The notes below the pieces were generated by a model. The model was given only the letters and a program-made list of their open reading frames with translations, had not been told where the DNA came from and made no database searches. The position numbers were made by a program, and so were the translations under genes. Shown here piece after piece: positions 4,292 through 52,579 of a stretch of DNA of 64,000 bases (positions within the stretch are counted from its first letter, which is position 1; each line of letters opens with the position of its first letter). Origin of the DNA: Streptomyces sp. SN-593 (GTDB lineage Bacteria > Actinomycetota > Actinomycetes > Streptomycetales > Streptomycetaceae); assembly GCF_016756395.1 (NCBI RefSeq), contig NZ_AP018366.1:1-64000 (forward strand), read 5' to 3'.

Positions 4292-4346
4292 TTCGCTCCC
4301 TGGGTGGGGTGGGGGTGAATTCGGTTTGCTGGCCGGTGCCACACCG

Positions 4347-4378
4347 TCCAACAAGAAAACTGTACCGCACTTTCATCA
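4347..4378 (-). promoter_or_regulatory. P1 promoter-like element, copy C
   Basis: Minus-strand copy of P1 (ATGATGAAAGTGC, GGTACAG, TTTTCTTGTTGG), ending 56 bp before the ATG at 4291. It heads the unit that includes dnaN. Confidence 0.72.
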
Positions 4379-13385: not shown

Positions 13386-14482
13386 CCGCCAAGCAGACCT
13401 GGTCGAGGGTGGGAGGTGCTGCCGCCGCGGCCCTGGTGCTCCTGGTCGGTCTCGTCGCACTGTTCGTCACGGTCGGCGCCGGGGCGGGCGACGCCGCGGC
13501 ATCGGTGTCAGCCCAGTACGCCGCCGCAACCCCCGCCTCGGCACAGTCCGTCGGCGGAGACCTGAAACCGGGCAGCGTGCCAGCCGAGGACGAACAGTGG
13601 ATCGTCGCGGCCGCCGACGCCTGCCCGGGCCTGCCCGCGCCGGTGCTGGCCGCCCAACTCCACCAGGAGTCCGGCTTCAACCCCAAGGCAATCTCCCCCG
13701 CCGGCGCGCAGGGCATCGCCCAGTTCATGCCCGGCACCTGGAACACCTGGAAGACCGACGCCAACGGCAACGGGACCGCCTCGGTGTGGGAGGCGCCGGA
13801 CGCGATCACCGCGCAGGGGCACTTCATGTGCAAGCTCCTCCAGCAGGCCACCGACTCCGGGTACGCCGGGCCACCCATCGAACTGGCCCTGGCCGGCTAT
13901 AACGCGGGCTGGGGCGCCATCCAGCGCTTCCACGGCGTCCCGCCCGTCTCCTTCGCCGGCGGGCAGACCGCCCACTACGTCACGGCGATAATGGCCGCCG
14001 CCCAGGACTACGCCGCGCCCGCGGCCGCTCCGGGCCCGTACGACCTGCCTGCCACCACCCCTGCCGCGATCCGGGTCGCGATCGCCTGGGGCCTGAAACA
14101 ACTCGGCGGCTGGTACTCCCTCGGTGGCGACTGCACCAACCCGCTCGGCCACGCCCCCTCCACCCGCTGCGACTGCTCCTCCCTGATCCAACAGGCCTAC
14201 CGTGCCGCGGGTATCAGCCTCCCGCGCACCACCTTCGAGCAGGTGAAAGTCGGCACGGCCGTCAGCCCGGACTCACCGCTCCCCGGTGACCTCGTCTTCT
14301 CTCCCGGAACGGACGGCACCGCCAGCAGTCCCGGCCACGTCGGGCTCTACCTCGGCGGCGGACAGCTCCTGGAGGCGCCGCACACGGGCACTCAGACGCG
14401 GGTGGTCACGTACGCGTCGTGGCGGACGTCGACCAGCCCCATCATGCGAGTCGTCGCAGTCCGCAGGGTCGTGGCCTGGTGA
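13382..14482 (+). CDS. Lytic transglycosylase - NlpC/P60 cell-wall hydrolase
   Basis: A 366-aa bifunctional peptidoglycan hydrolase that would open the wall for the transfer channel. Residues 12-35 form a membrane anchor or signal. The SLT domain (~70-215) has the catalytic Glu96 in QLHQESGF, then GAQGIAQFMPGTW and the AGYNAGWGAI motif. The NlpC/P60 domain (~228-366) has Cys265 in RCDCSSL and His319 in PGHVGLYLG. This fusion is standard for Gram-positive type IV systems. GTG start overlaps the previous TGA. It is the last gene of the first transfer operon; an inverted repeat overlaps its stop. Confidence 0.88.
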   Translation: MTAKQTWSRVGGAAAAALVLLVGLVALFVTVGAGAGDAAASVSAQYAAATPASAQSVGGDLKPGSVPAEDEQWIVAAADACPGLPAPVLAAQLHQESGFNPKAISPAGAQGIAQFMPGTWNTWKTDANGNGTASVWEAPDAITAQGHFMCKLLQQATDSGYAGPPIELALAGYNAGWGAIQRFHGVPPVSFAGGQTAHYVTAIMAAAQDYAAPAAAPGPYDLPATTPAAIRVAIAWGLKQLGGWYSLGGDCTNPLGHAPSTRCDCSSLIQQAYRAAGISLPRTTFEQVKVGTAVSPDSPLPGDLVFSPGTDGTASSPGHVGLYLGGGQLLEAPHTGTQTRVVTYASWRTSTSPIMRVVAVRRVVAW

Positions 14483-14512
14483 GCTGAGCTTGGTTTTCCC
14501 CTACCACCAGGC
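14474..14512 (+). terminator. Inverted repeat at the end of the transfer operon
   Basis: GCCTGGTG at 14474-14481 and CACCAGGC at 14505-14512 flank the stop codon of the hydrolase, with a 23-nt loop holding TTGGTTTTCCCC. A weak terminator candidate before P2 copy 2. Confidence 0.4.
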
Positions 14513-14594
14513 GATCCGCCCCCGCCTGAGCCTGGCGCCGCCGCACCGAAGTTGGCCGTGCCAGCGGGGCTCGCCAAATTGAGGCTCCCTGCTC

Positions 14595-14631
14595 GTCACA
14601 AATCGCTTCGCCATCGCGCTTGCAGCAGTTG
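14595..14631 (+). promoter_or_regulatory. P2 promoter-like element, copy 2
   Basis: GTCACA at 14595-14600, 17-bp spacer, GCTTGCAGCAGTTG at 14618. It ends 43 bp before the ATG at 14675 and heads the coupling-protein operon. Confidence 0.7.
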
Positions 14632-14674
14632 AGGGCGGCACCCGGTCCGCCCGACCCCTGTGGACGGAGTGGTG

Positions 14675-15166
14675 ATGGCTGATCCGATGGCGGTGCTGAA
14701 CTCGGTGCTGGCGATCCGGCAAGAGGTGGGCGCCTACCTCGCCGGGCACGCGTGGGAGATCGCGGCGGCGATCGCGTTCACCGGTGCCGCTGGGGCGGCC
14801 GGGGCCGGGTGGTGGCGCCGTACGGCTGCAGCCGCGCTCACGGACCGGGTGGGCTACGAGCTGCTGCCGGCGTCCACCTTCGAGGCCGGCCCGGTCGAGG
14901 TTCGCTGGTTCGCCGGCCAGCTCGCGTCGGTGCCGGCAGCGAGCGGCGCGCTACCGAGGCGGGCATCGGCATCGCGGGTGCGGATCACGTGCGAGGGCAA
15001 CCGGCTGCACTTCCTGCTTGAAGGGCCGGGCCGGGCGCAGAGTCTGCTGCGGATGCCCGGCTACCAGGATGTGGAGGTCGTCTCGGCCGCGGTGCGCGGC
15101 CGCGCGGCGCAGGTACACCGCATCTGGTTCGAGGGCGCACGGCCGTCTGCTGGGGGTGTCCGGTGA
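14675..15166 (+). CDS. Hypothetical membrane-anchored protein, 163 aa
   Basis: One or two membrane segments at residues ~23-42 (WEIAAAIAFTGAAGAAGAGW), then a soluble domain with VEVRWFAGQLASVP and LLEGPGRAQSLLRMPGYQDVEV. No family recognised. It is coupled by TGATG to the VirD4-like ATPase and shares its P2 promoter, so it probably partners that ATPase at the membrane. ATG at 14675 is preferred over in-frame GTGs just upstream (14660, 14672) because GGAG precedes it. Confidence 0.65.
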   Translation: MADPMAVLNSVLAIRQEVGAYLAGHAWEIAAAIAFTGAAGAAGAGWWRRTAAAALTDRVGYELLPASTFEAGPVEVRWFAGQLASVPAASGALPRRASASRVRITCEGNRLHFLLEGPGRAQSLLRMPGYQDVEVVSAAVRGRAAQVHRIWFEGARPSAGGVR

Positions 15167-17424
15167 TGGTGAGCCTGACGAAGTCCTCGGAGGAAGAGGC
15201 CCAGCGGATGTACGTGGCGCGGGCCGAGCTGGTGCTGGCGCGGCCCGATCACCGGCCGCTGGCCCGGCTGGGGCCCGACCCGGACCCGCTGCAGAAGCTT
15301 GCCGCGGCCATGGCGGCGGTGCGAAGCGAGGACGGCGAGCTGGCGGACGTCGTGGTGGACCTGGTGCCGGTGCCGGACCGCCAGGTGGACCGTCGCCGCC
15401 GGGCGCTGATGAGACGGGCCGAGCAGCGCGGGCCGTCGGCGTACGGGGAGCGGATCGGCGGCGGGGGCTCGGCGTGGTGGGACACGCTGCGGACCGCGGT
15501 CATCGAGGGCTCAAGCATGGGCGGCGCGTCGAAGGGCCGGGCGCAGTCGCGGGTGCCGCGCCAGGTCGACCTCGCCGACGGGGTGGGGAAGTTCGTGCCC
15601 GGGGAGCCCGTCTTCGCCGCGCAGGTGCTGCTTCGGGTGGAGGCCACGCACCCGGCCCGGGCGCGGGCGCTGCTGCACCAGTTGCTGGGGGCGATGGAGG
15701 TCTTCTCCGGGGAGAACCGGTGGCGGCCGGTCGGCCCCCGGTGGGGGGCCTGGCGGGCCTACAGCAATACGTGGTGGCGTAGGCGTGCCTTCGACCGGCG
15801 TTTCGACAGCGGGGAGTTCGCCCCGGCCCGCCGGCAGTGGGTGACGCCGCCGGAGATCGCCGGACTGCTCAAGCCGCCCACCCGGCACTGCGACGCCATG
15901 AACGTGGCGCGCACCGGGGGCGTGGTGCCGCCGGCGCCGGCGGGCCTGCCGGAGTGGACCGGGCAGCGCGGTTTGCTGCCGCTGGGCCAGGTGACCGGGT
16001 CCGCCGGCCGCACCTACCTGGCCGGTGTCCCCGAGCGCGACGTGCTGTTCGGGGTGGGGCTGGGGAAGAGCGGATTCGGCAAGACCGAGCAGGCGCTGCT
16101 GCAGTTCCTGGCGATGGCGTACTGCGGGTACGGCTGCTGGTTCCTCGATCCGCACGGGGCGGCCCTGGAGCGGTCCCGGGCGTACCTGACGCACCCGGCG
16201 GTCCGGAACCGGGTGTGGGAGGTCGACCTGGCCAAGCCGGCGCTCGAGGACATGTTCCCGTGCTGGAACCCGCTCGACATGAGCCGTCGCAGGATCGAGG
16301 ACATCCAGGAGGTGGTCGGCGCGGTCGTCGGAGCGATCGCCACAGCTCAGGGATGGGGGGACGGGGCGCCGCGGGCCCGGACGATCCTGTCCAACGCGGT
16401 GCTGGTCCTGGCCCATCTGGCGCACCAGTTGGTGGCAGCCGGGCAGCCGCAGATCCAGCCCACTCTTCTCCAGGTCAAGACGCTGCTCACTGACGAGGTG
16501 TGGCGGGCGGAGGTGCTGGAGCACATGCCGGACCGGGTGCGGAAGTTCTGGCGGGTGACGTTCCCGAAGTACGAAGCCGCGGCCGTACCCACCATCACCA
16601 ATGCGCTGGACCTGTTGGAGACGTCGCTGTCGCTGACGGCGTTCCTGGGCGGGTCTGTCTCCAGCTACGACGTGCGCCGGGCCATGGACACCGGCGCGGT
16701 GGTCACCGTCGCCCCGTCGGGAACCGGCGCCGGCGACAATCTCATCAGTTCACTGCTGATCTTCGATCTGTTCATGGCCGGCCTGTCGCGACAGGACACC
16801 CCGACTGAGCAGCGGCGAACTTTCTTCGCGTGGATGGACGAGCTGGCCGCGCTCGACTCCGCGGGCCGCGGCTTCATCGCGAAGATTTTCGAGCAGCTCC
16901 GCAAGTACAAGGTGCGGCTGATGGTGGCCACGCAGATGGCGATGCGGCTGTCCGACACCACCCGGCAGGCCGCGCTGCAGAACCAGAGCGTGCTGTCCGC
17001 GACCGCGGCGGACATCGATGAGGCCCGCTTCGTCGCCGCCCGGATGCCCGGCGTCGACCCCGAGACCATCGCGGGGCTCGACAAGTACCAGTACATCGTC
17101 ACCGCCCAACTGCACGGCCGGCGCAGCACGCCGTTCCGGGTCTCCGGCGTCCCGATCGACCAGGTGATGGCCGACTACTACGACCCGGCCGGTCTGCCCG
17201 ACCTGGAGAGCGCGATCGACCTCAGCCTGCGCCGCCAGCCCGTCCACAAGATCCTCGCCCACGTCGAATTTCTGGACGAGCAGATCAGCGACTACCTCGC
17301 CACGCGGGCGCCCCAGCCCGCCGCCGCGGCCAGCGCGGGCAGCTCGCCGGTGTCGTACGACGCCGGCACCGACCCGCTCACCGACACCCTGATCCTGCCG
17401 GTCCTCAAGGACAAGGACGCCTGA
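15166..17424 (+). CDS. VirD4/TraG-type conjugation coupling ATPase
   Basis: A 752-aa protein with an N-terminal ~270-aa domain of unknown fold, then an ATPase core with Walker A GKSGFGKT near residue 301, a CWFLDPHGAALE strand, and a Walker B-like block FFAWMDELAAL near residue 555, followed by ATQMAMRLSD. Such ATPases deliver the DNA-protein substrate to the channel, and the position after the channel genes and before the replication-relaxation gene supports a coupling role. No membrane helix is evident in it, so the small upstream protein may supply the anchor. ATG overlaps the preceding TGA; a GTG at 15163 is also possible. Confidence 0.75.
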   Translation: MVSLTKSSEEEAQRMYVARAELVLARPDHRPLARLGPDPDPLQKLAAAMAAVRSEDGELADVVVDLVPVPDRQVDRRRRALMRRAEQRGPSAYGERIGGGGSAWWDTLRTAVIEGSSMGGASKGRAQSRVPRQVDLADGVGKFVPGEPVFAAQVLLRVEATHPARARALLHQLLGAMEVFSGENRWRPVGPRWGAWRAYSNTWWRRRAFDRRFDSGEFAPARRQWVTPPEIAGLLKPPTRHCDAMNVARTGGVVPPAPAGLPEWTGQRGLLPLGQVTGSAGRTYLAGVPERDVLFGVGLGKSGFGKTEQALLQFLAMAYCGYGCWFLDPHGAALERSRAYLTHPAVRNRVWEVDLAKPALEDMFPCWNPLDMSRRRIEDIQEVVGAVVGAIATAQGWGDGAPRARTILSNAVLVLAHLAHQLVAAGQPQIQPTLLQVKTLLTDEVWRAEVLEHMPDRVRKFWRVTFPKYEAAAVPTITNALDLLETSLSLTAFLGGSVSSYDVRRAMDTGAVVTVAPSGTGAGDNLISSLLIFDLFMAGLSRQDTPTEQRRTFFAWMDELAALDSAGRGFIAKIFEQLRKYKVRLMVATQMAMRLSDTTRQAALQNQSVLSATAADIDEARFVAARMPGVDPETIAGLDKYQYIVTAQLHGRRSTPFRVSGVPIDQVMADYYDPAGLPDLESAIDLSLRRQPVHKILAHVEFLDEQISDYLATRAPQPAAAASAGSSPVSYDAGTDPLTDTLILPVLKDKDA

Positions 17425-17425
17425 C

Positions 17426-18370
17426 ATGCCCTACGCCCCCACGGTCGAACCACCGCAGTACGGGCTGACGGCCTTGGCCGAGCAGCTCCTGCCCGTGCTG
17501 TACCGGCACCGGCTGATGACCACCGGCCAGCTCCACCGGCTGCTGCAGCCGCACGTCGTCCACCCGACGTACCTGCGCAGGCAGCTCACCCGGCTACGCG
17601 AGCGCGGCCTGGTCGACGCCGTGGTCCGCAACCGCGGCGGCGGACAGGGCCAGCAGGCCTGGTACTGCACCCCGGCCGGCGCCGACGTCGTGGAGGCCGC
17701 CCGCGAACTGACCGCCCGCCCCTACCGGATGACCGAGCACAACGCCTCCTCCCAGCTCCAGGAACACACCCTCGCCGTCAACGACACGGGCATCGCCTTC
17801 GTGGAGGCCGCCCGCGCCGCCGGCCACGACTGCGGCCCACTGGACTGGGAGCCCGAAGTCGCCCACCGCTTCCGCGACGGCGAGGCCCGCGCCGACGACG
17901 ACGCCTTCCTCACTCCCGACGCCGTACTCTCCTACGTCCAGCGCAACGGGCCGCGCGCCACCGCGATCACGTACTTCCTGGAGATCGACCGCGCCACTGA
18001 AGGCCCCGCACAGCTCGCCGACAAGCTCCGCGCGTACGCCCGCTACCAGACCTACGTCCCCACGGCCCCGGTCGCCAGCCGCGGCCGCCCCGACACCGGC
18101 GGCGAGGCCTGGCGCGGCCGCTACGCCACCTTCCCGCTGGTGCTGTTCGTCCTCACCGGCGCCACCGAGGCGGCGATGATGCGGCGCGCTGCGGACGTGC
18201 GCGCGCTGGCCGCAGCGGACGCGCGGCTGCGACGTGCCGCGCACCGGCTTCCCGCCGGGATCACCACCCTCCGGCAACTGCAGAAGTTCGGGCCCTGGGA
18301 GCCGGTGGTCACTCCGGTGTTCGGCAACAACGCGACGCCGACGAACGCCCTCTCGTACGCCCAGAGCTGA
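17426..18370 (+). CDS. Replication-relaxation family protein, 314 aa
   Basis: The N-terminus holds a winged helix (LAEQLLPVLYRHRLMTTGQL, then YLRRQLTRLRERGLVD), the pattern of replication-relaxation proteins on actinobacterial plasmids. The middle contains WEPEVAHRF, DAVLSYVQ and TYFLEIDRATE, the acidic strands seen in this family. These proteins are thought to act on DNA in replication or transfer initiation; a relaxase role is plausible given its place right after the coupling ATPase, but no catalytic proof is visible. Its ATG is one base after the upstream TGA. Last gene of the transfer cluster. Confidence 0.75.
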   Translation: MPYAPTVEPPQYGLTALAEQLLPVLYRHRLMTTGQLHRLLQPHVVHPTYLRRQLTRLRERGLVDAVVRNRGGGQGQQAWYCTPAGADVVEAARELTARPYRMTEHNASSQLQEHTLAVNDTGIAFVEAARAAGHDCGPLDWEPEVAHRFRDGEARADDDAFLTPDAVLSYVQRNGPRATAITYFLEIDRATEGPAQLADKLRAYARYQTYVPTAPVASRGRPDTGGEAWRGRYATFPLVLFVLTGATEAAMMRRAADVRALAAADARLRRAAHRLPAGITTLRQLQKFGPWEPVVTPVFGNNATPTNALSYAQS

Positions 18371-41041: not shown

Positions 41042-42396
41042 CACGTAGCAGCCATGTCAACGAAGCGGCTGTAGTGACCTTGGAAGGCGACCGTGATCGT
41101 GGCTGTCGGGCCGTTGCGGTGCTTACCGACGATCAGGTCGGCCTCCCCAGCGCGGGGGGAGTCCTTCTCGTAGGCGTCCTCTCGGTGCAGCAGGATCACC
41201 ATGTCGGCGTCGTTCTCGATCGCGCCGGACTCGCGCAGGTCGGAGACCTGCGGCTTCCTGTCCTGGCGTTGCTCGGGGCCGCGGTTGAGCTGGGAGAGGC
41301 CGATGACCGGTGCTTTGAGTTCCTTGGCCAGCAGTTTCAGGCTGCGGGAGATGTCGGAGACGTCCTCCTGGCGGGAGGAGTTGCGCCGGGTGCTGGCCGG
41401 GGTGACGAGCTGGAGGTAGTCCACGATCACCAGGTCCAGGCTGTCGCGGGCGGCCAGACGCCGGCACCGGGTACGGATGTCGGGCAGGGACAGGCCAGGC
41501 GAGTCGTCAATGTGCATCCGGGCCTCTTCGATGTCGGGCACCGTACGGGCGATGCGTCGCCAGTCGTCATCGGTGAGCGCCCCGGACCGCAGGTGGTGCA
41601 GGCCGACGCGGGCCTGCGCGGAGATCACCCGCATGCCGATCTCGTCCTCGCTCATCTCCAGGCTGAACACCGCCACCGAGCGGCCGTGGTCGATAGCGGC
41701 GGCGCGGGCAAAATCGATGGCTAGCGTGGATTTGCCCATAGCAGGCCGGCCGGCCACCACGATGAACTGGCCCGGCTGCAGTCCCCGGGTCAGGGAGTCC
41801 AGGTCGGTGAATCCGGTCGGCACGCCGGTCATCTCGTCCTCGCGGCGGGTACCGGCCTGGTCGATCACCCGGGCGGTGATGACCGACAGCTTCGACCCCG
41901 GCTCACCGGCGCTGCGCTGCTCGGTGACGGCATACACCTCGGCTTGCGCGGTGTTGACGATCTCGTCCAGGTCGCCCTCGGCCGCGTAGCCCATCTGCGT
42001 AATGCGGGTGCCGGCCTCAACCAGCCGCCGCAGCACCGCGCGCTCGTGAACAATTTCCGCGTAGTGCCCGGCGTTGGCAGCGGTCGGTACCGCGTTGACC
42101 AGGGTGTGCAGGTACGGGGAGCCGCCGATGCGGGCGATCTCGCCGCGCTTGGTCAGCTCCGCGGCCACCGTGATTGGGTCGGCCGGCTCGCCCTTCCCGT
42201 ACAGGGCCAGGATCGCCGCGAAGATCGTCTCGTGCGCGGGCCGGTAGAAGTCCGCGCCCTTCACGATCTCGCTCGCGTCCCCGATCGCGTCCTGGGACAG
42301 CAGCATGCCGCCCAGCACGCACTGCTCCGCATCCAGGTCCTGCGGCGGAACACGCTCGAAGCCGCCGACGGCCGGTCGTTCCTCGGTTGCCGTCAC
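41041..42396 (-). CDS. dnaB: Replicative DNA helicase DnaB
   Basis: A 451-aa hexameric helicase. N-terminal domain starts PQDLDAEQCVLGGMLLSQDA, typical of bacterial DnaB; linker helix; RecA-like ATPase with Walker A GRPAMGKST near residue 216, FSLEMSEDEIGMRV, LDLVIVDYLQLV (Walker B), GLSQLNRGPEQRQDRKP and DLRESGAIENDADMVILLHR. All DnaB motifs are intact and length is normal. GTG start overlaps the stop of the initiator-like gene. A dedicated plasmid helicase coupled to a presumed initiator, comparable to lambda O-P logic. Confidence 0.93.
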   Translation of the reverse strand: MTATEERPAVGGFERVPPQDLDAEQCVLGGMLLSQDAIGDASEIVKGADFYRPAHETIFAAILALYGKGEPADPITVAAELTKRGEIARIGGSPYLHTLVNAVPTAANAGHYAEIVHERAVLRRLVEAGTRITQMGYAAEGDLDEIVNTAQAEVYAVTEQRSAGEPGSKLSVITARVIDQAGTRREDEMTGVPTGFTDLDSLTRGLQPGQFIVVAGRPAMGKSTLAIDFARAAAIDHGRSVAVFSLEMSEDEIGMRVISAQARVGLHHLRSGALTDDDWRRIARTVPDIEEARMHIDDSPGLSLPDIRTRCRRLAARDSLDLVIVDYLQLVTPASTRRNSSRQEDVSDISRSLKLLAKELKAPVIGLSQLNRGPEQRQDRKPQVSDLRESGAIENDADMVILLHREDAYEKDSPRAGEADLIVGKHRNGPTATITVAFQGHYSRFVDMAAT

Positions 42397-43610
42397 GCGT
42401 CCCCCCCTCGGCTGGTCACACGGTCGACGTCCGCACGCAGCGAGGCGAGGAACCCGTCCCGACCCAACCGCCGGAACTCTGTCGCCGGGTCGGGCCGCCC
42501 CTGCCTGGTCTGGTCGGCCCGGCGCTGCAGCCTGCACTCGGGGCATTCGTCCAGCGTGAACGTGCCTCCGCCGTGGCCTGGCTTGACGCACTTGCCGGTC
42601 TGGTCCGGCGCGGCCGGGGCTGGCAGCCGCCGCTGAACGGCTTCACGCAGCGGCAGGTTCGGCACCCGCTTGCGCTCCAGGGTCACCGGGTAGTTCTTCA
42701 CTCCGCCCGGGTTCAGCGTGAGCTGGCGGGCCAGGTCGTCATCGAGCTGCCAGCCCTGGGCAGCCACTTCCTCGAGAAGCCGCGGGGCGATCCGCTCGGC
42801 GTCCTTCCGGCCGCACGCCCACGGGGCGGGCAGCAGCATCAGGAATCGCTTCGCCTCCGCGAGGTCTTCCGGTGCGAAGCACACCGCCTCCTCCTCCCCC
42901 GGCGCAGCCGGGCCGCCCGTCGACCCTGCGCCGTCGACGGGGGGTAGGGGGGAGGAGGTTCCTCCTCCTCCGGAGGGGGGGTGTGGGGGGGAGACGGTCC
43001 CGCTTCCCGGAACGCCGGAAGCGGTCCGACCTGCGGGAATGCGGGGGTTACCGCTTCCCGGAACGCCGTGTCCGGCGTTCCCGGATACGGCGTTCCGGGA
43101 AGCGGTCCGACCTGCGGTTTTACCTTGCCTTGGAGGTTCGGGCGTTCCCGCTTCCGGCGTTCCGGGAAGCGGTGTGACCTGCGGCTTTGCGTGCGGGAAA
43201 TCGGGGTGGTCCTGGGGGGTCCACGGGTCGCTCGGCTGCGTGAACTCGGGGTGATAAGCCGGCTGGCGGTAGACCAGGTAGCGCACCGAGCCGAAGCGGC
43301 CCGGCGCGCTGCCTTCCTCCACCCGGTGGACGAACCGCGCCTCGATGAGGCGGGTCACCGACTGGTAGACCGCATCCCGGCCCACCAGCTCCTTCGCGTT
43401 CTTCGCCGACCGGATGCCCTCGACCTGCAAGGCCTCCCACAGGTCCTTCACTGTGACCGGCCGGTCCTCCTCCAGCATGAACAGCAGGTGCAACAGGACG
43501 ACGTAGTCCAGGGCGTGGGTGAGGCCGGAGCCGTAGACCATGTGCCGCATCACCGTCGTCGCCGGTGCAGGCTCTGCGCCGCGGCCGAAGGTGGCCGTTT
43601 CCTCCATCAC
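42393..43610 (-). CDS. Winged-helix replication initiator-like protein, 405 aa
   Basis: Residues ~20-115 form a winged-helix domain (GLTHALDYVVLLHLLFMLEE, AVYQSVTRLIEARFVHRVEE). A Pro/Gly/Ser/Arg-rich low-complexity linker (~150-240) follows and is encoded by the repeat cluster at 43001-43184. The C-terminal domain is helical (DAERIAPRLLEEVAAQGWQL, ARQLTLNPGGVKNYP) and has a C-x~12-C-x2-C group (KCVKPGH, DECPECRLQ) that may bind zinc. Gene order (this gene then dnaB) and the internal repeats argue for an origin-binding initiator/helicase loader. GTG at 43610 or ATG at 43607. Promoter: P2 copy 4. Confidence 0.6.
   Translation of the reverse strand: MMEETATFGRGAEPAPATTVMRHMVYGSGLTHALDYVVLLHLLFMLEEDRPVTVKDLWEALQVEGIRSAKNAKELVGRDAVYQSVTRLIEARFVHRVEEGSAPGRFGSVRYLVYRQPAYHPEFTQPSDPWTPQDHPDFPHAKPQVTPLPGTPEAGTPEPPRQGKTAGRTASRNAVSGNAGHGVPGSGNPRIPAGRTASGVPGSGTVSPPHPPSGGGGTSSPLPPVDGAGSTGGPAAPGEEEAVCFAPEDLAEAKRFLMLLPAPWACGRKDAERIAPRLLEEVAAQGWQLDDDLARQLTLNPGGVKNYPVTLERKRVPNLPLREAVQRRLPAPAAPDQTGKCVKPGHGGGTFTLDECPECRLQRRADQTRQGRPDPATEFRRLGRDGFLASLRADVDRVTSRGGDA
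43001..43184. repeat. Repeat cluster inside the initiator-like gene, candidate origin
   Basis: GAAGCGGTCCGACCTGCGG occurs at 43018 and 43099 and, with two changes, at 43166. CGCTTCCCGGAACGCCG occurs at 43001 and 43052, with its reverse complement (starting CGGCGTTCCGGGAAG) at 43088 and 43155. The repeats are direct and inverted, and flank G-rich runs at 42939-42992. They encode the low-complexity linker of the protein. A DnaA- or initiator-bound origin inside an initiator gene is known from lambda O; here it is inferred. Confidence 0.65.
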
Positions 43611-44100: not shown

Positions 44101-45423
44101 TCAGTCGGTGCCTTGGTCGGGGGACAGTGTGATCAGTTGCGGTCCGGCTCCCCGCACGTCACCAGCGCGTCGTTGGAAGAGAGCGCCGCTTCCGCGCCCT
44201 TCGACCGTGACGGTTCTGAGGTGCTCAAAGCCCCTGCTCGCGTAGAACTCTTGGAGCTGCTGGTTCTCGCGCCATGCGTCCAAGCGCACCCAGCGGGCCC
44301 CTTGGTCGGCCGCCATCTGACTCGCCCAGTCCAACATGGCGCCACCCAGCTCGTGCCCGCTGCTGTCCCGGCGGACGACCATCCGGTGTACGTACACGGC
44401 CGGCTCCTCTGCCTCTTCGCTCGTCCAGAAGTCCGGGTCCGGATGGTCATCCACCGTGATGGTGGCGACCGGCACACCCTGGTCCTCGACCAGGAAGCAC
44501 TCGCCCGCCTCGATGTTCTGCACGATGCGTTCCAACCGCGGCGCGTACTGCCACTGATCGATCCCGCGCTTGCCGAGCCAAGAGGCGGCGCCAGTCCAAA
44601 GCGAGGTCACCGTGTCGAGGTCTGCCTCGCTGGCAGGTCGGATGACGAGCTGTCCGCTTATAGGAGGTTTGGCCCGCTCGTACGTGATCACATGGCGGTC
44701 GCCAGGGAGGCAGTTGATGACCGTCCGCACAGGTCTGCCGCTTGCCGTGTAACCGGTCGTCACATGCGAGGCCACGGCCGTGCCGGGGCCAAGGTGGAGT
44801 CTCTCGACTTCCTCCGGAGTCGGCATACGCACGTGGATCTCATCGATGGCCCTCACCTGCGGGTATCCCAGCTCGGCCAGCACAGTGTTGGCTCCGCGTG
44901 TGATGTCTGCCGGATCCATGATCTCGCTGCCCTGGACCAGGTCGAGCGGGAAGTAGCTGTCGTTGGTGTTGTAAGGCACTCCGTCGATGTACCTGACGCG
45001 CCGACGAACTGCTGTCAACTCCCCCTCCGCCAGGCGGAGCCGATCCCGGACCTCGGTGGTGGGCTTGATGATCGACACTTCGATCTTCTGGGTCGCCACG
45101 CGCCCTTCGTCGCTCAACTGTGCGACAAAAGCGTCCATCTCGGATGTTAGGGGTCGCCGCCTGAACTCCGCTTGCGGGCGATAGACCATCGGCCTCCTGG
45201 CGCGCACGAAGTGCCCGCGCGGTCGCTGCGAGACGATCAGCCCCTCGTTGATCAGCACGCCCAGACCCTTGACCGCCGTCGTGCGAGTCGTGTCCCAGCT
45301 AGCCGCGATCTCCGCTTCCGTCGGAAGTCGGTCGCCCTCGCGCAACGAGCCATCACTGATCTGCGCACGAATCTGGTCGGCGATCCGAAGGTAGAGCGCC
45401 CGCGGCCTGCTGCTAACTGACAT
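44101..45423 (-). CDS. GntR/HutC (UTRA) regulator fused to GNAT acetyltransferase
   Basis: A 440-aa two-part protein. Residues ~9-75: GntR winged helix (LYLRIADQIRAQISDGSL, LPTEAEIAASWDTTRTTAVK, EGLIVSQRPRGHFVR). Residues ~105-245: UTRA ligand domain (TAVRRRVRYIDGVPYN, LAELGYPQVRAIDEIHVRMP). Residues ~270-425: GNAT fold (VIRPASEADLDTVTSLW, VYVHRMVVRRDSSGHELGGAML, FYASRGFEHLRT). HutC-type GntR proteins such as KorSA control plasmid transfer in Streptomyces; the fused acetyltransferase is the unusual part. ATG at 45423, upstream GAGGAAGG; probable operators TGAGTAGTCAAT lie 25-118 bp upstream. Confidence 0.82.
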   Translation of the reverse strand: MSVSSRPRALYLRIADQIRAQISDGSLREGDRLPTEAEIAASWDTTRTTAVKGLGVLINEGLIVSQRPRGHFVRARRPMVYRPQAEFRRRPLTSEMDAFVAQLSDEGRVATQKIEVSIIKPTTEVRDRLRLAEGELTAVRRRVRYIDGVPYNTNDSYFPLDLVQGSEIMDPADITRGANTVLAELGYPQVRAIDEIHVRMPTPEEVERLHLGPGTAVASHVTTGYTASGRPVRTVINCLPGDRHVITYERAKPPISGQLVIRPASEADLDTVTSLWTGAASWLGKRGIDQWQYAPRLERIVQNIEAGECFLVEDQGVPVATITVDDHPDPDFWTSEEAEEPAVYVHRMVVRRDSSGHELGGAMLDWASQMAADQGARWVRLDAWRENQQLQEFYASRGFEHLRTVTVEGRGSGALFQRRAGDVRGAGPQLITLSPDQGTD

Positions 45424-45447
45424 GTGATCTGTGTACCTTCCTCGCAA

Positions 45448-46109: not shown

Positions 46110-46510
46110 GCGCGGTGGGTGCGACGTCGCCGGGGGTGACGCAGATGCGTCGCCGGGCTCTGGTGACGACGTGGACGTGCTCGGGGCTGGCGGTGTCCGG
46201 CACCGCGTGGGCCCTGGGCCTTGAGACGGAATGGTGGAAGCGCCTGCTCCTGGCGCTCCTGGTCGCGGGTCTCGCCGTGCTGGACGAGATCGACGTGGCG
46301 CCGGTGCTCGATGTGCGCATCGAACTGGCGCGGTGCCTGTCGAGTCTGGGCTGGCTGCAGATCCCGATGTCGGTGGCCGGCGGTGCCTGGCTCCTGGGGC
46401 TCAACACCCCGGTGCTGAGCCGAATCCTGCTGGCCGTTGTGATCGCCGGGGTGGTGGCCGTGTACCGGCTCTCGCCGTCGGCCCCGGCCCGGACGGAGGG
46501 AAAGCGATGA
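46106..46510 (+). CDS. Spd-type small membrane protein, 134 aa
   Basis: Four hydrophobic segments near residues 18-38, 45-60, 78-96 and 100-122 (LVTTWTCSGLAVSGTAWALG, LLLALLVAGLAVLDEI, PMSVAGGAWLLGL, ILLAVVIAGVVAVYRL). Position before a DUF2637-like gene and traB fits plasmid spread proteins. No sequence family is certain. ATGA overlaps on both sides. Confidence 0.65.
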   Translation: MSAVGATSPGVTQMRRRALVTTWTCSGLAVSGTAWALGLETEWWKRLLLALLVAGLAVLDEIDVAPVLDVRIELARCLSSLGWLQIPMSVAGGAWLLGLNTPVLSRILLAVVIAGVVAVYRLSPSAPARTEGKR

Positions 46511-48114
46511 GCACGACCATGTCGTACCGCGAGCAGCAGCGCGCGGACCGTGCGGCCGAGCGTGAGCAGGCCCGCGAGGACGCGAGAGTGCGGGCCGAGG
46601 CCGAGGCGGACCTGCGGCGTCTGGACATTGAGGCCGAGGCGAAGCGGCGCGAGGCCGACCGTCTGGACGCGGCCGCTCGGGCCGAGGCCGCACGGGCGGC
46701 GGAGGAGCTGAAGGCCCGCCAGGACACCGAGCGCCGCGAGCAGCAGCGTCTGGCGAAACTGGCGGCCGACAAGGAGAGGGCCAAAGCGAAGGCGAAGGCC
46801 CGCGCCGAGCGCCGCGAGCGCCGGGCGGCGGCGGTCAAGGCGGTGCCGGCCTGGCTGGCGGAGCACCTGGACCTGGCGGCCGCGCTGGTGGTCATGGGGT
46901 GCAGCATCATCCCCGCCCTGATCTCCCAGGCCGCGTCCCTGTCGGACACCGGGATCACGTCGTCCATGGGCTGGGCCGGCGGTCTCCTGGTCGCCCTGCT
47001 GCCAGTGATGCTTGAGTGCAGCGCTTGGGCGGCGACGGCCGGCGAGGCCAAGGCGATGAAGTCCCGCCGTTCGCCGTGGCCGTACCGGATTGCCGTCTAC
47101 GTGTTCGCGTCGCTCGCGGCGTGGATCAACTGGCAGCACGGTCAGAACGTCGGTGGCGACCAGTACGGGACGCTGCTCGGCAGTGTGCTGGCCGCGTCGT
47201 CCGTCGTGCCGATCGCGGTCTGGCAGCTCGTCCAGGTCGGCCGGCACCGGGAGTTCAAGGACGAGATGCGTCGGGCCCGGCAGCACGACCGGGATGTCAA
47301 GGCGACGCGTGAGGCCCGCCAGAAGGAACTGCCCGAGGTGTGGGCGACGGCGGTCCAACTGCGCGCGATCGCCGGGCATCACAATCTGACGGACGAGGAT
47401 GCCTGGCACGCCGCCTACGCGGTGCACGAGGGTGCCGGCGACGACGTGCTCGACCCCAAGCTGCTGGTGCTGCTGTCCACCGAACTGATCGGTCTTCGGG
47501 CCGATGCGGAGGACCGTCTGGCGCTGGTTCTGGCCGACCTGAGCGCGGCGCGTGGACGGCGTCTTGAGGCGTCCGCCGGACTGTTCAAGAAGGACTCCGA
47601 GGGGTCCGTGAACGGGGCCGCGAAGGGGTCCGCAACCCCCCCTACGCCGGTCGCGCGAAGGGTCCAGACGGGCCTCCTGGACAGCCTCGGGAGGCCCCTG
47701 TATCAGACGGTATCTCCGCAGATCAACCCGTCTATCCCCCCGTCCGCACACACGTCTGAAACCGCGCCCGCGCGGACGCGCGGTACCACGCCCGCCCCCG
47801 CGCGTAAGGCGCGCGCGAAGAAGCCCGCGCGGACGCTGTCGTCCGGCGCGCGGAAGGCGGCGGCGCACACCGCGCGGACGTCCTCGCCGGAGGAGCGGGT
47901 AACCCTGGACGCCTGGCTCGCGGACGAGTTCAGGGACGGTCGCGGACACACCTGGCAGGACGTCCGGGACAAGACGCTGGCACTCCGTGAGGAGGCCGGG
48001 ATCAAGGGCACCCAGGACCCGAGCCGCTCCTGGTGCTACGCCCGGATCGCCGCCGCTCAGAAGTCCACCGGCATCCGCATCGACGTCACCTCTGACCAGA
48101 AGGCGAGCGCGTGA
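46507..48114 (+). CDS. Spd/DUF2637-like membrane protein with N-terminal coiled coil, 535 aa
   Basis: Residues ~5-110 are a highly charged Ala/Arg/Glu coiled coil. Four membrane helices follow between ~118 and 250 (DLAAALVVMGCSIIPALIS, MGWAGGLLVALLPVMLECSAW, YRIAVYVFASLAAWINW, LLGSVLAASSVVPIAVWQL), a DUF2637-like pattern. The C-terminal half is soluble, with a basic Arg/Ala linker and a terminal domain starting ERVTLDAWLADEFRDG that may be an HTH. Probable plasmid-spread protein acting with TraB. Confidence 0.7.
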   Translation: MSTTMSYREQQRADRAAEREQAREDARVRAEAEADLRRLDIEAEAKRREADRLDAAARAEAARAAEELKARQDTERREQQRLAKLAADKERAKAKAKARAERRERRAAAVKAVPAWLAEHLDLAAALVVMGCSIIPALISQAASLSDTGITSSMGWAGGLLVALLPVMLECSAWAATAGEAKAMKSRRSPWPYRIAVYVFASLAAWINWQHGQNVGGDQYGTLLGSVLAASSVVPIAVWQLVQVGRHREFKDEMRRARQHDRDVKATREARQKELPEVWATAVQLRAIAGHHNLTDEDAWHAAYAVHEGAGDDVLDPKLLVLLSTELIGLRADAEDRLALVLADLSAARGRRLEASAGLFKKDSEGSVNGAAKGSATPPTPVARRVQTGLLDSLGRPLYQTVSPQINPSIPPSAHTSETAPARTRGTTPAPARKARAKKPARTLSSGARKAAAHTARTSSPEERVTLDAWLADEFRDGRGHTWQDVRDKTLALREEAGIKGTQDPSRSWCYARIAAAQKSTGIRIDVTSDQKASA

Positions 48115-48491
48115 TGACCCGTCGCCCCCGACTCGTTGACCGCAAGCACGCCGACGGCTTCCCGACGTACACGTGGAAGACCGCCCCGGACGGACTGTCG
48201 ACCAAGGACCAGCTCAAGAGCCGCGGACTGAGGCCCGGCGGTCCCATCGTCGCCCAGATCAAGTGGCGGTCGAAGAAGCGCCACGGGAACTACCGGCACG
48301 CCTGGCTGTACGAGACCGACCTGGCCCTGCCCAAGCAGCCGATGACGCCGGCGAAGTGGGAGGCCGTGGGCAAGGCGCTGCGCGCCCGGCGGATCTGCCC
48401 GGAGTGCGGTGTGGAGAAGCACTACACGATCAGCACGAAGTACAAGGCCTGCAACGAGTGCATGCCCCCGGAGTACGCCGCAGCAGCCTGA
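48114..48491 (+). CDS. RRQRL-type zinc-binding protein, 125 aa
   Basis: Pattern of small actinobacterial plasmid proteins with a central KDQLKSRGLRPGGPIVAQIKW segment and a C-terminal zinc site RRICPECGVEKHY ... YKACNECMP (two C-x2-C pairs). In this copy the RRQRL box reads TKDQLK. Function unknown, but it regularly sits beside tra/spd genes. ATG at 48114 shares its A with the preceding TGA; a GTG at 48111 is equally possible. Confidence 0.7.
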   Translation: MTRRPRLVDRKHADGFPTYTWKTAPDGLSTKDQLKSRGLRPGGPIVAQIKWRSKKRHGNYRHAWLYETDLALPKQPMTPAKWEAVGKALRARRICPECGVEKHYTISTKYKACNECMPPEYAAAA

Positions 48492-48583: not shown

Positions 48584-51193
48584 ATGACCGAGACCTACCA
48601 GGAAGGAACAGCCGCCCCCACCCGTTGGGATGACCTGCGGGTCGCGGCCGAGCTTGTTGTCTCCTCCCAGTTCGGCTCCACCTCGATGCTGCAGCGCAAG
48701 ATGCGGCTCAACTTCTCCGAGGCCACCGCGGTGATGAACGACCTGGAGGACCTGGAGGTGGTCGGCCCGGACAACGGCGGCCGGGCCAGGGAGGTCCGTA
48801 TCCGGCACACCGACGGCCTGGCTCCGATCTTCGTCCGGATCGGCGTGGAGGAACTGGCCGAGTCGGCCGGCAACGTCCGCACCCTGCCCAGCGTGCTGCA
48901 CCCCGCCGCCCCGGAGGCCACTGTCCTCCCGCCGGCGCCCCGCCAGGACACCCCGGCGCCGGCGCCGGTCGGCATGGCCAAGGTCGACGTGACCAAGCCG
49001 GCCGCGCCCGCGGCGTCCGCGCCGGTGGAGGGCACGGTCGTCAACACGGGCCAGCGCCTGCCGGACGACCCGGAGGGGGACGCGCCCTGGATCAACCCCT
49101 CGCTGCGGACCAAGGAAGGCCGGCGTGCCCGGGCGGACTACCTGGCGCGGCAGAGCCGCCGCCGGGCCCGCCGCTGGGTGTCCCGCCAGCGGACCGCACA
49201 CGGCGTGCTTCCCCGCGCGGTCCGCGGACAGCGACGAGTACGCCGCTGGGTGATCGGCATGGAGGGCGCGAAGGCGCGCGCCGACCTGGCGCTCGCCCAC
49301 GGTTCCGTGGACGCCGCGCGCCGGGAGGCCCGCAGCGCTTCGATCGCGATCCGCGACCGCCGGGCCAAGCTGGCCACGGCTAGGACGGCCCAGATGGAGG
49401 CATCGCAGGCGGTGATCGTGGCGCAGTCCGCGCGGAGCCGGGCCCGGAACATCGTGCTCACCCGCGCCGCGGCGGCGTACGGGCCGGTCGCGCTGGTCGA
49501 CGGGCTCATGGTCGTGGAGGCCGGCGGTTTCTGGGGGCTGCTCGCCGCGGCGGCCGCGAACATCATCGGGGCGTCCTTCCTGGGCCGCGACGTGGAACTG
49601 ACCGAGGACCAGCTCGCCGCGCTCGAGGCGGCCGAGGCCGGTGTCCCGCAGCGCATGGAGGTCGGCATGACGCCGAAGATGTTCGAGCGCATGGTCAAGG
49701 AAGCGCTGACCGAGTCCCTGAAGGTGTCCGTCGCGCAGATCCGTGTGGAGCCCCACGAGTGGGGATTCATGGTGTACGTCTGGCTGGACCGGATGACGCC
49801 GGAGAAAATCTCCTCCCAGCTCGACCTGCTGGAGGGATGCCTCAGCGCCCGGACCGGCTCGATTCTCCTTCAGCAGTCGGCGCAGGCCCGCAACGAATGC
49901 GTAATCCGCTTTCCCGGAAACGATCCGTGGCGATTCGTGCCCCCGCTCCCGTACCGGGCGCCGCATTCGCTGACCACGGCCGATCTGCACACGGCGCAGA
50001 TCGGCGCGGACATGGCCACCAAGCCGCTCGCGCTGCCGATGTCCCGCACGAACATCGACATCGTCGGCAAGTCCCGCTCGGGCAAGTCCACGATCCTGCG
50101 GGCGATCCTGGACGCGGTCACCGCAACCGACGACCAGATCATCATCGGCATCGACCTCGGCAGTGCTGGCAGCGGATTCGGCGGGCTGCGGCCCGCCATG
50201 CACGCGGTGATCACCAACCCCGAGGACGCGCAGCGCGCCCTGCAGTGGGCGCTGGACATCGGCAAGGGCCGCCCCGCCCTGTTCGACCAGCTCAACATGG
50301 GCCAGAACTGGCAGACCTCCCACAAGCGCCCCGGCATCAAGATCATCGTGGATGAGTTCCCGGCGCTGGTCCGCGTGAGCCGCAAGGGCTACTACGACGA
50401 GGAGGCCAAGCGGAACGTGCCGTGGGAGCTGGACACCATGCTCGCCGAACTCGCCATCACCAGCCTCAAGTCCGACGTCACGATGGTCATCGCAGGCCAG
50501 GGTGTCACCAAGGAGAAGATCAAGGACAACACGTGGCTGACCGAGCTGCAGGTGCAGGTCCTGGCCGCGTGCGACGTGGACGACGTCGTGCAGATCCTCG
50601 GCGGCGGCGCCATGGCGCAGGGTTGGCGCCCGGACCGGCTGCTGCCGGCCATGGCAGAGCAGGTCAACGACGCCTCCGTGGCGTACGTGATGGCAGGCGC
50701 GCAGTATTGCGAGCCCATCCCGTACCGGGCGTGCATCGAGTCGGATGAGGAGCTGCTGCGCCGCGGCATCGAGCGCGGCCGGGCGGGCCTGGTCGACATC
50801 GACGCGGAGTCGGCGAAGCTCAGCTCGATCAGCCTGTCGAGCCTGATGGCCGACTCCGACGTCCAGGTCGCCGCCGGCGCGCAGTCCGCGCTGATCACCA
50901 CCATCCGGCAGATTTTCGCCGACGCGGGCGACCCGGCCGGCCTGTCCCGGGAGGAGCTGGCCGACGCGCTCGGCCAGGCCGAGCCCGCCCGGTGGTCGCT
51001 GGAGGAGTTCGACGGCGACGACGAGGCGGAGCAGACCGAGGCGCGGGTCGCCGCGGTCCGGGCAGCGATCGACGCGGTCCTGGCCCCCACCGGCCAGACG
51101 TGGGCGCTGGAGAAGTACAGCAAGGCCCTGCCCCGCGGGTACCGCCTCCGCGACCTCAAAACGATCACCGGTGAGGACTCCCCCAAGTCCTGA
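48584..51193 (+). CDS. traB: TraB-type FtsK/SpoIIIE conjugative DNA translocase
   Basis: An 869-aa motor for double-stranded DNA transfer between mycelia. Residues ~15-72 match an FtsK gamma-type winged helix (SSQFGSTSMLQRKMRLNFSE, DLEVVGPDNGGRAREVRI), placed here at the N-terminus instead of the usual C-terminus. A basic region (~180-225), a coiled coil and one or two membrane segments (~295-330, VALVDGLMVVEAGGFWGLLAAAAA) follow. The motor has Walker A GKSRSGKST near residue 495 and Walker B KIIVDEFPALV near 585, plus QGVTKEKIKDN. ATG at 48584 has AGGAGG upstream. The phased repeats just downstream (51204-51360) are its probable recognition site. Confidence 0.9.
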   Translation: MTETYQEGTAAPTRWDDLRVAAELVVSSQFGSTSMLQRKMRLNFSEATAVMNDLEDLEVVGPDNGGRAREVRIRHTDGLAPIFVRIGVEELAESAGNVRTLPSVLHPAAPEATVLPPAPRQDTPAPAPVGMAKVDVTKPAAPAASAPVEGTVVNTGQRLPDDPEGDAPWINPSLRTKEGRRARADYLARQSRRRARRWVSRQRTAHGVLPRAVRGQRRVRRWVIGMEGAKARADLALAHGSVDAARREARSASIAIRDRRAKLATARTAQMEASQAVIVAQSARSRARNIVLTRAAAAYGPVALVDGLMVVEAGGFWGLLAAAAANIIGASFLGRDVELTEDQLAALEAAEAGVPQRMEVGMTPKMFERMVKEALTESLKVSVAQIRVEPHEWGFMVYVWLDRMTPEKISSQLDLLEGCLSARTGSILLQQSAQARNECVIRFPGNDPWRFVPPLPYRAPHSLTTADLHTAQIGADMATKPLALPMSRTNIDIVGKSRSGKSTILRAILDAVTATDDQIIIGIDLGSAGSGFGGLRPAMHAVITNPEDAQRALQWALDIGKGRPALFDQLNMGQNWQTSHKRPGIKIIVDEFPALVRVSRKGYYDEEAKRNVPWELDTMLAELAITSLKSDVTMVIAGQGVTKEKIKDNTWLTELQVQVLAACDVDDVVQILGGGAMAQGWRPDRLLPAMAEQVNDASVAYVMAGAQYCEPIPYRACIESDEELLRRGIERGRAGLVDIDAESAKLSSISLSSLMADSDVQVAAGAQSALITTIRQIFADAGDPAGLSREELADALGQAEPARWSLEEFDGDDEAEQTEARVAAVRAAIDAVLAPTGQTWALEKYSKALPRGYRLRDLKTITGEDSPKS

Positions 51194-51203
51194 CCCCGAC
51201 GCC

Positions 51204-51360
51204 GGAACCGGGACGGAACCGCAGGTCAGCGTGGCGGAACCGGCCCGGAACCGGCCGGGAACCCCCCGCCGGCACCGGAACTGGTTCCGGTCGCCCGACC
51301 CGGGTTCCGCCCGTGATCACGCCCCTGACCTGCGGTTCCGTCCAGTTCCCCGCCCGTTCC
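51204..51360. repeat. Phased inverted-repeat block after traB, candidate clt locus
   Basis: GGAACC at 51204, 51215, 51236, 51247 and 51258, then GGAACTGGTTCC at the centre (51277-51288), then GGTTCC at 51283, 51303 and 51334 with GTTCC-ended variants at 51344 and 51355. Spacings 11, 21, 11, 11 and 20, 31, 10, 11 are close to whole helical turns. GACGGAACCGCAGGTCAG at 51212 is exactly inverted at 51325-51342. Intergenic between traB and the next gene. Streptomyces clt sites are short direct repeats bound by TraB, located near traB. Confidence 0.72.
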
Positions 51361-51388
51361 CCGCCCGAAAGATCCACAGGAGTCCGTT

Positions 51389-52579
51389 ATGACCTTAGAG
51401 CCTGGTCGGCCTTCCGAACCGGCCCACGGGTACCACCGGATCGCCACCGAGCGCCACTTCCGCTACCTGGAGCTGGAGCAGGGCGCGTTCACCACCAAGT
51501 GGGCCACGGTCGACGCCTGCTGCCAGTTCTGCGGCACCGACACCGGCCTGGTGCTCATCCTCGATGAGACCCTCCACTCCCACGTGCTGGTCCTGTGCCC
51601 GCTCGGCTGCGACCCGCTCGCGGACCTGCGCATCGACCGGCAGCACTTCATCACCTACTCCCGGCTGCGCGGCTACGCCGACCCCAACCCGGACCTGCTG
51701 TGGATCATCGACGCCGGGTTCGGCGAGGAACCCCCGCCGCCGCCCGACATCGCGCACGACCTGATCGCCGGGTGGGGCTACGCCGCGAAGAAGGGCGGCA
51801 GGGCGGTCAAGGCGGAGGTGAAGGGCGCGATCCGGTCCCGCCGCCGCACAGCAGCCAAGGCCGCCCGCAATGCGGCATATGCGCCGGTCGCGGCGGTCCT
51901 GCGCACCGCGTGGGGCTGGCAGGCCGGACCGACCCCCACCCCGCCCCCTCGCCCGCGGCCGGCACCGAAACCGCCGAAGACGCCGCCGGTGTCGGCGTAC
52001 CGCAAGGCGCTCGGTGTCGACGCCCCCAAGCGCGGCCCGAAGTGCCTGGTCTGCCAAGACACCGGCCGCATCACCGCCCCGGGCATCTCGATCCCCTGCA
52101 CCGAGTGCGCCGGCCCGGCCGCTGCCGCGATGGCCGCCGCGGAGAGGCGCGCCGAACGCGCCCGCCAGGGCAAGGACCGCCGCCGCACCCGGCCCTCCCC
52201 CGCGACCACCACCGGCCCGGGCCTGGTCAACACCGGAACCGTCAACGGCAGCGTCCAAGTCGCCGGCGTCAGCGCCCACTCGGTGCAGATCAGCGGCAAC
52301 CAGGCCGTCATCGACGGCCAGCCGGTCAGCATCAACGACCCCCGCGTGAAGAAGGCCAAGGCCGATGCGGCGAAGGCTGTCGGCGGCGCGACCCGGCGGG
52401 CCAAGGCGGCCGGCGCCGGCGGCAGCCGCTCCACCGTGACCGTCAACGGCCGGCAGGCCCCCGAAGGCCACAGCACCGACGCGAACGGCAACTCGATCTA
52501 CGTCAACACCGGCGTGGCCAACACCGGCCGCATCAGCGGCGACGTCACCAGCACCACCTCCCCCGAGCCCACGACCTGA
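51389..52579 (+). CDS. Hypothetical Cys-rich protein after traB, 396 aa
   Basis: N-terminal ~120 residues form a mixed domain with ACCQFCGTDTGL and CPLGCDPL, possibly a zinc ribbon. A basic Arg/Ala helix region and a Pro-rich linker lead to a DnaJ-like zinc knuckle (CLVCQDTGRI, CTECAG; residues ~211-236). The C-terminal ~120 residues are Thr/Gly/Asn-rich strands (NTGTVNGSVQVAGVSAHSVQI). No family recognised. AGGAG seven bases before the ATG. Translationally downstream of the clt-like repeats, so part of the transfer region. Confidence 0.68.
   Translation: MTLEPGRPSEPAHGYHRIATERHFRYLELEQGAFTTKWATVDACCQFCGTDTGLVLILDETLHSHVLVLCPLGCDPLADLRIDRQHFITYSRLRGYADPNPDLLWIIDAGFGEEPPPPPDIAHDLIAGWGYAAKKGGRAVKAEVKGAIRSRRRTAAKAARNAAYAPVAAVLRTAWGWQAGPTPTPPPRPRPAPKPPKTPPVSAYRKALGVDAPKRGPKCLVCQDTGRITAPGISIPCTECAGPAAAAMAAAERRAERARQGKDRRRTRPSPATTTGPGLVNTGTVNGSVQVAGVSAHSVQISGNQAVIDGQPVSINDPRVKKAKADAAKAVGGATRRAKAAGAGGSRSTVTVNGRQAPEGHSTDANGNSIYVNTGVANTGRISGDVTSTTSPEPTT

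Follow-up and report, generated by a model that had tools for sequence, protein, structure and literature searches.

A phased, mirrored GGAAC array directly behind a traB-like gene as a plasmid's candidate clt

The non-coding gap directly 3' of a traB-like gene holds 11 copies of GGAAC or its complement GTTCC, sorted by orientation around one centre and set on one face of the helix. The DNA analysed, hereafter the window, comprises bases 1-64000 of the 93,381-bp contig C2 of an 8.97-Mb genome that has a second small contig, C3 (46 kb); its nearest plasmid records belong to Streptomyces and Kitasatospora. We propose that this array is the plasmid's candidate clt and that it is read by TraB, most likely through the C-terminal domain, and we hold this reading to be about 85% probable. 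TraB acts by binding 8-bp repeats termed clt according to the available text of PMC12857230, and clt sequences vary between plasmids according to that of PMC3583192. A preliminary description of this DNA had already named the array as a candidate clt, and the proposal now has strong comparative support, since the same layout lies 3' of TraB-like genes in relatives and in pSVH1.

Anatomy and setting of the array

The left arm contains five GGAACC units at steps of 11, 21, 11 and 11 bp, and GGTTCC-type units follow at steps of 20, 31, 10 and 11 bp (GGTTCC at 51283, 51303 and 51334, AGTTCC at 51344 and CGTTCC at 51355), exactly as first described (Table 1). The centre CCGGAAC-TG-GTTCCGG and an 18-bp inverted repeat without a mismatch were likewise found where they had been placed. 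The claim that all sites face one side of the helix also withstood scrutiny: the phasing score was 0.94 against a random mean of 0.48, a value reached in 0 of 5000 random trials, and the units follow a grid of ~10.6 bp. All six GGAAC lie to the left of the centre and all five GTTCC to its right. Conservation of the element is highest in the inner half of this repeat, 9 bp long (GCAGGTCAG/CTGACCTGC, hereafter the frame arms), a point absent from the preliminary description.

Table 1. Features of the array and its neighbourhood (positions in the window)
Feature	Position	Strand	Remarks
Divergent GntR/UTRA regulator gene	44101-45447	-	ORF also with GNAT domain
DUF2637 protein gene	46231-48114	+	True start probably inside ORF
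RRQRL-type zinc-binding protein gene, transfer operon	48156-48461	+	tblastn match region; 42-48% identity to annotated RRQRL proteins of L020 and L021
traB-like FtsK/SpoIIIE translocase gene	48584-51193	+	869 aa; start from relatives; hhalign to pSVH1 TraB
FtsK-gamma winged helix, TraB N-terminus	48641-48802	+	PF09397, 49.8 bits
TraB C-terminal domain, proposed repeat reader	50867-51181	+	Predicted winged-helix-like model
Whole intergenic element, proposed clt	51194-51388	.	195 bp, traB-like gene to orf396
Left arm	51204-51262	+	GGAAC starts 51204, 51215, 51236, 51247, 51258; ~10.6-bp grid
18-bp perfect inverted repeat, left half	51212-51229	+	Partner 51325-51342
Left frame arm GCAGGTCAG	51221-51229	+	Same helical register as units; conserved across loci
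Centre CCGGAAC-TG-GTTCCGG	51275-51290	.	Sixth GGAAC (51277) and first GTTCC (51284)
Right arm	51284-51360	-	GTTCC starts 51284, 51304, 51335, 51345, 51356 (minus-strand GGAAC)
Right frame arm CTGACCTGC	51325-51333	-	95 bp from left frame arm
orf396, conserved, directly behind element	51389-52579	+	45-50% identity to same-place genes of L020 and L022

Eleven units stand in the gap, where 5000 dinucleotide shuffles gave 1.5 on average and never more than 6, and the array is the densest 200 bp for these words in the window (11, against 7 at the runner-up place). GGAAC was picked post hoc, though, and when every 5-mer is allowed, counted together with its complement, 210 of 2000 shuffles contain one that reaches 11; because G+C-rich words recur in this way, the unit count alone is weak. 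Nor is the word rare, with 80 GGAAC and 82 GTTCC in the window. Segregation by arm, phasing and conservation, rather than unit count, carry the case. A host LexA SOS box was ruled out: such a box reads GAAC-N4-GTTC, and the centre is GAAC-N2-GTTC, without the four-base spacing.

The gene ahead of the array encodes an FtsK/SpoIIIE motor related to a characterised TraB. Its motor domain scores 25.2 bits against PF01580 (cut-off 24), and a 16-sequence TraB profile that includes the window's protein aligned to pSVH1 TraB in hhalign with E 9e-42 over 645 columns; phmmer of the protein against the PDB gave no match at E 0.01. The GTG at 48173 with which the listed ORF begins is too early, the starting Met of relatives matching the ATG at 48584. 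An spd-like membrane gene would be expected to accompany such a translocase; the candidate here is the upstream DUF2637 ORF, a domain annotated in relatives too, and the same place in pSVH1 holds SpdB2. Elsewhere in the window, 2445-3695 encodes a DNA polymerase III beta-clamp paralogue, carried on the plasmid.

Repeats of this kind could also form an iteron-type replication origin to which a plasmid Rep protein binds. The origin of pWTY27, according to the available text of PMC3583192, is an inverted GTGGGAAC/TTCCCAC array bound by RepA, which resembles GGAAC/GTTCC. Here, the element's neighbours are traB and orf396, the dnaB module lies at 41-43.6 kb, and in the stretches of relatives examined the element stands behind a TraB-like gene with no replication gene annotated beside it. 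A better origin candidate, with palindromic CCGCTTCCCGGAACGCC repeats and three GACCTGCGG, occupies 43000-43190, inside an ORF (42393-43610, minus strand) directly upstream of dnaB; it is perhaps a lambda-O-like origin within its own initiator gene. We consider an origin at the array very unlikely.

The same layout behind other TraB-like genes

We compared 36 loci, a non-exhaustive set made up of the window, 25 loci that came from protein searches (DNA similarity also retrieved 5 of these) and 10 that the frame pattern itself retrieved. The protein searches returned 5 loci in genome contigs and 77 plasmid records for the window's TraB, and 57 and 48 records for two distant TraBs; a subset was selected by coverage. 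Twenty loci (L014-L018, L025-L028, L081-L091) came from protein searches alone, made without regard to the array. Of 18 plasmid records that matched the gap at the DNA level, the best five were 71-77% similar, each with a traB homologue ahead of the matching DNA. The preliminary description had proposed looking for the array near other traB genes; in the 36 loci, a mirrored, mostly phased array indeed follows a TraB-like gene directly on its 3' side.

The frame begins 10-50 bp behind the traB stop in the 36 loci, and gaps measure 193-228 bp in the window and 21 annotated plasmid stretches. When the inverted pair GCAGGTCAG...CTGACCTGC was sought at 80-100 bp, the best spacer was 95-96 or 85-87 bp in 36/36, two classes that differ by one helical turn. 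Both arms are exact in half of the 20 protein-only loci, and 18 of the 20 have at most 3 mismatches in 18 positions; shuffled controls (40 per locus) averaged 6-7 mismatches, with per-locus minima of 2-6. The frame of L089, with 5 mismatches, is no better than its own shuffles (minimum 4), and that of pSVH1 has 4, its right arm being exact and its left arm lost.

Measured from the centre, GGAAC slots lie at ~12, 20, 31, 42, 64, 74 and 85 bp, the one at ~53 bp being taken by the frame arm. Across 225 units from 29 non-redundant loci, phasing at 10.6 bp reached R = 0.89 (at most 0.24 in 1000 random trials), related loci not being independent. The 29 remain after dropping L026, L028, L065, L073, L083, L090 and L091, whose C-termini are at least 85% alike to others. 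L084 is the one exception, its phasing being weak for the word tried (R 0.45 over 7 units). L019 (NZ_CP022546, 5708-5901) is a second array copy behind an apparently broken traB, on a plasmid that also carries a longer traB copy.

The mirrored halves raise the question of whether the element works as a transcribed RNA hairpin, or as a DNA cruciform, between traB and orf396. Folding of the RNA gave z scores of -3.7 to -8.5 (11 of the 36 loci tested), the arms stay complementary across repeat classes, and in the window in-register matching is no poorer between the units (51%) than at them (43%). Over all 36 loci, however, the mean in-register match is 61% at units against 42% between them (range 26-59%) and 29% in wrong registers, so the complementarity of the arms is concentrated in the units. 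The units also keep the 10.6-bp grid even opposite an empty slot. We regard the hairpin or cruciform as very improbable.

A scan for the frame pattern gave 57 places in 49 of 394 genomes, compared with 11 genomes for the reversed-pattern control. Twenty of the 57 were inspected, picked for array-like inner bases or for contrast, the window's own place being among the other 37. Thirteen lie behind a TraB-like gene (L061-L073) and seven elsewhere (L074-L080), so the frame alone is not diagnostic, the rest of the 57 lying outside this sample. L069 and L070, which duplicate L021 and L018, and the pFP1-like L071 were left out of the 36. Among six new-class proteins, Pfam detected FtsK_SpoIIIE in L064 only and an AAA domain in L067, and gave no match for L062, L065, L066 and L068; that these proteins are probably TraB-like rests on tblastn matches of L065 and L068 to annotated FtsK/SpoIIIE proteins and of L065 to pSVH1, together with the alignment.

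We also inspected 25 other FtsK-domain genes by eye, namely 24 among the matches listed in eight relatives (ORFs of 346-799 aa) and one on C3; selection went by the length of the ORF, whatever DNA followed it. About seven (L148, L149, L151-L155) are followed by a mirrored repeat array; no array was seen downstream of the short FtsK-domain genes or of the one on C3 in this sample. We take the short genes without an array to be pSAM2-like. The arrays in question (L151-L154, L149, L148 and L155) use the words GGGAGGC, GGTAG, GAAAC and GCGGAC, and L151 and L153 keep a pair resembling the frame, with a distance of 96 bp and 3 mismatches. After the FtsK-domain stop of L136-L138, L146 and, in part, L140 there is a conserved GGCGCGA..TCGCGCCAGGTCCCTACCCG..CATG ahead of the next gene, and no array. 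The reach of the frame has a limit, in that several short FtsK-domain genes lack an array here and, as PMC9513070 notes, the AICE pSAM2 has no described clt motif.

The exchangeable word and its likely reader

The frame is shared and the repeated word changes. By class, and with the fraction of units in the orientation expected for their arm, the words are GGAAC (15 loci; 142/145), CTCTAC (4; 24/25), GTACG, extended GGTACG (4; 31/43, less well oriented than the others), CCTGGGAC-like (5; 15/17), TGCGA, extended TGCGACG (3; 17/17), GTGTC, extended GTGTCC (3; 28/28), CGTGA (1; 5/6) and, in pSVH1, GACCCGGA (8/9). Words were the most frequent 5-mers in arm-oriented counts, some then being set by hand per class; because of this choice the counts lean the expected way, but 142 against 3 for GGAAC exceeds the bias.

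Word similarity follows TraB similarity (Mantel r 0.78, reached in 0 of 5000 permutations; 36 loci collapsed to 29). As is characteristic of clt loci in Streptomyces TraB/Tra plasmids, the element is non-coding, adjoins a tra gene and has 11 short repeats whose word tracks the TraB lineage. The correlation is equally strong for the C-terminal 110 residues and the preceding 430 (partials 0.47 and 0.48), and so does not single out the reading domain.

This association with TraB also bears on the idea that the array is an operator for a regulator of orf396. The element precedes that conserved gene in the same orientation, and the operon has a GntR/UTRA regulator. Against this, eleven phased units spread over 160 bp in two orientations exceed the need of a dimeric repressor, the word changes with the TraB lineage, and the repeats of pSVH1 are reported as TraB-bound in the available text of PMC3583192. 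An operator in place of a TraB site appears very improbable, albeit slightly less so than an origin or a hairpin; operator and TraB-binding roles could coexist.

The best-studied TraB site shares the layout of a clt as proposed here. In the 228-bp gap directly 3' of traB in pSVH1 (Streptomyces venezuelae; L081), the letters GACCCGGA, which the preliminary description gave as the published repeat unit, stand at 4240, 4262, 4294 and 4315 (steps of 22, 32 and 21 bp). The reversed form TCCGGGTC follows at 4331 and an exact CTGACCTGC arm, in register, at 4370, and one further GACCCGGA occurs elsewhere in the 7.2-kb stretch of the plasmid examined. The repeats are phased and mirrored in the gap. pSVH1 differs in its word, in the lost left GCAGGTCAG arm, in a frame spacer of ~86 rather than 95 bp, and in having no gamma-domain match in the stretch examined; it is also classed as a rolling-circle plasmid (PMC3583192, available text). 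Its TraB recognises repeated 8-bp motifs via helix alpha3 of a C-terminal winged helix, according to the same text.

pSVH1 speaks as well to the possibility that the element is the oriT of a relaxase-based (T4SS) system. A VirB4-like ATPase and a Replic_Relax protein are encoded at 7.8-18.4 kb of the window, and some relatives have MOBF or MOBP relaxases. In the annotated stretches examined, though, the element has no relaxase next to it, and the same layout is found in pSVH1, which is typed non-mobilizable; we judge an oriT the least likely of the alternatives, and extremely so. Independently of the array, the region at 7849-18370, with its VirB4-like ATPase (AAA_10) and Replic_Relax protein, may be a second, T4SS-like transfer module.

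Two further plasmids are informative. pFP1 (Streptomyces sp. FQ1) has, like the window, a divergent GntR gene, DUF2637 and then traB with a gamma domain, and its exact GCAGGTCAG/CTGACCTGC frame (arms 96 bp apart) lies 10 bp behind the traB stop; it differs in the word, CTCTAC/GTAGAG, and in a TraB C-terminal domain unlike the window's. We found no description of a pFP1 clt in the open literature, pFP1's own paper being outside the search. The clt of pWTY27, in the available text of PMC3583192, likewise lies immediately behind a tra gene, comprising 16 bp of traA and 159 bp behind it, has repeats and inverted repeats, is bound by Tra and is essential for transfer; its words, TGACACC and CCCGCCC, are different.

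The preliminary description had assigned the reading of the repeats to the N-terminal winged helix of TraB, and this part of it is probably wrong. The gamma domain was detected in 13 of the 36 loci with a local gamma profile, and it is absent from 6 of the 15 GGAAC-type loci that keep the array (L017, L022, L023, L024, L072 and L073; no match at E 1e-3 in any frame), so it cannot be a required GGAAC reader. At 723 aa, the traB of L017 may be truncated. Gamma was also rejected as a required reader of the frame arms, most arm-bearing loci being without it. The window's gamma domain shares 52% identity over 60 residues with its counterpart in a chromosomal FtsK-domain ORF, the one that gives the strongest FtsK motor match in the genome, and it may derive from FtsK by capture.

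The C-terminal domain is predicted to be the likelier GGAAC reader. In our reading, its AlphaFold model (mean pLDDT 82, blocks of 90-97 over residues 51-140) orders its elements as a winged helix does, though with strands of only 1-2 residues. In VIA-align many, not all, of its neighbours are winged helices (e.g. Rex), with Z of at most 5.7, a level the tool calls common; no FtsK gamma domain was among the neighbours listed, which proves nothing. The best Foldseek match in the PDB was not significant (E 1.6). A C-terminal profile gave a weak match to the pSVH1 C-terminus (probability 22%, E 0.0009). The signature GY.L is present in 27 of 36 TraB C-termini, pSVH1's included, and missing from all four CTCTAC TraBs and from the GTGTC class, which has GF there.

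Proposed mode of action and the frame arms elsewhere

To our knowledge, how TraB moves unprocessed circular DNA is unsettled. We suggest that TraB, encoded just upstream, would read the GGAAC words with a winged-helix domain, the C-terminal one being the likeliest. As the words lie one turn apart on one face, several subunits could dock side by side on the array and might nucleate a ring on the plasmid, which would then be pumped as double-stranded DNA into the neighbouring cell. Transfer would be expected to need the element, the two arms would present the word in opposite orientations, which may have a role of its own, and the GCAGGTCAG/CTGACCTGC pair, in the same helical register, would be read by something common to these plasmids.

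A more specific form of this proposal, which we advance tentatively and consider rather unlikely, is a two-armed loading dock. Up to 5-6 words per arm (6 and 5 in the window), spaced by one turn and oppositely oriented in the two arms, would load two opposed TraB hexamers, GCAGGTCAG/CTGACCTGC, in the same register, would be a shared site that recruits a host or common transfer factor, and the word, exchanged between plasmids, would act as the plasmid's address. Two hexamers pointing opposite ways would pump both sides of an uncut circular plasmid.

TraB-bound repeats behind traB are already known; the combination of two arms, a conserved frame and an exchangeable word appears to be an undescribed architecture. 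We did not find the common frame or its arms described in the accessible text of the open papers searched (including PMC3583192, PMC3212956, PMC3218068, PMC12857230 and PMC9513070), a search that lay outside the pFP1 and pSVH1 papers. The common frame, with its arms, 10.6-bp grid, mirrored halves and spacers one turn apart, makes it possible to locate clt sites by their sequence. It also predicts the word of each TraB, providing a natural series of words and proteins for a recognition code, and it raises the questions of why there are two orientations and who reads GCAGGTCAG.

FtsK KOPS are short oriented words read by the winged helix of a DNA pump. The array likewise consists of short oriented words with a winged-helix pump as predicted reader. 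KOPS are strand-biased along each chromosome arm; GCAGGTCAG, counted over the whole host genome and not arm by arm, has no overall strand bias (122 forward and 109 reverse, against 91 and 75 for the reversed-word control). GACCTGC, three copies of which also occur in the probable origin at 43.0 kb, was rejected as a general plasmid mark: C2 has 68 copies against 71 of the reversed word, so it is not enriched overall, and of its two clusters on C2 one is the origin candidate.

Several other occurrences of the frame-arm words were noted. At L040, L042-L044, L047-L049, L052, L053, L055 and L058, chromosomal GCAGGTCAG is accompanied by a tiny reading frame and CTGACCTGCGGAAACG / CGTTTCCGCAGGTCAG. 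The tiny frame resembles ATG TTC GAT CAG TAC TAC GAC CTG TAG (MFDQYYDL variants). The two such sites examined at length, L076 and L077, are near an Abi gene and an integrase. Finally, L031 / L080, on a 685-kb contig, has eight CTGACCTGC or GCAGGTCAG words within 0.5 kb, including three pairs that start 35 bp apart.
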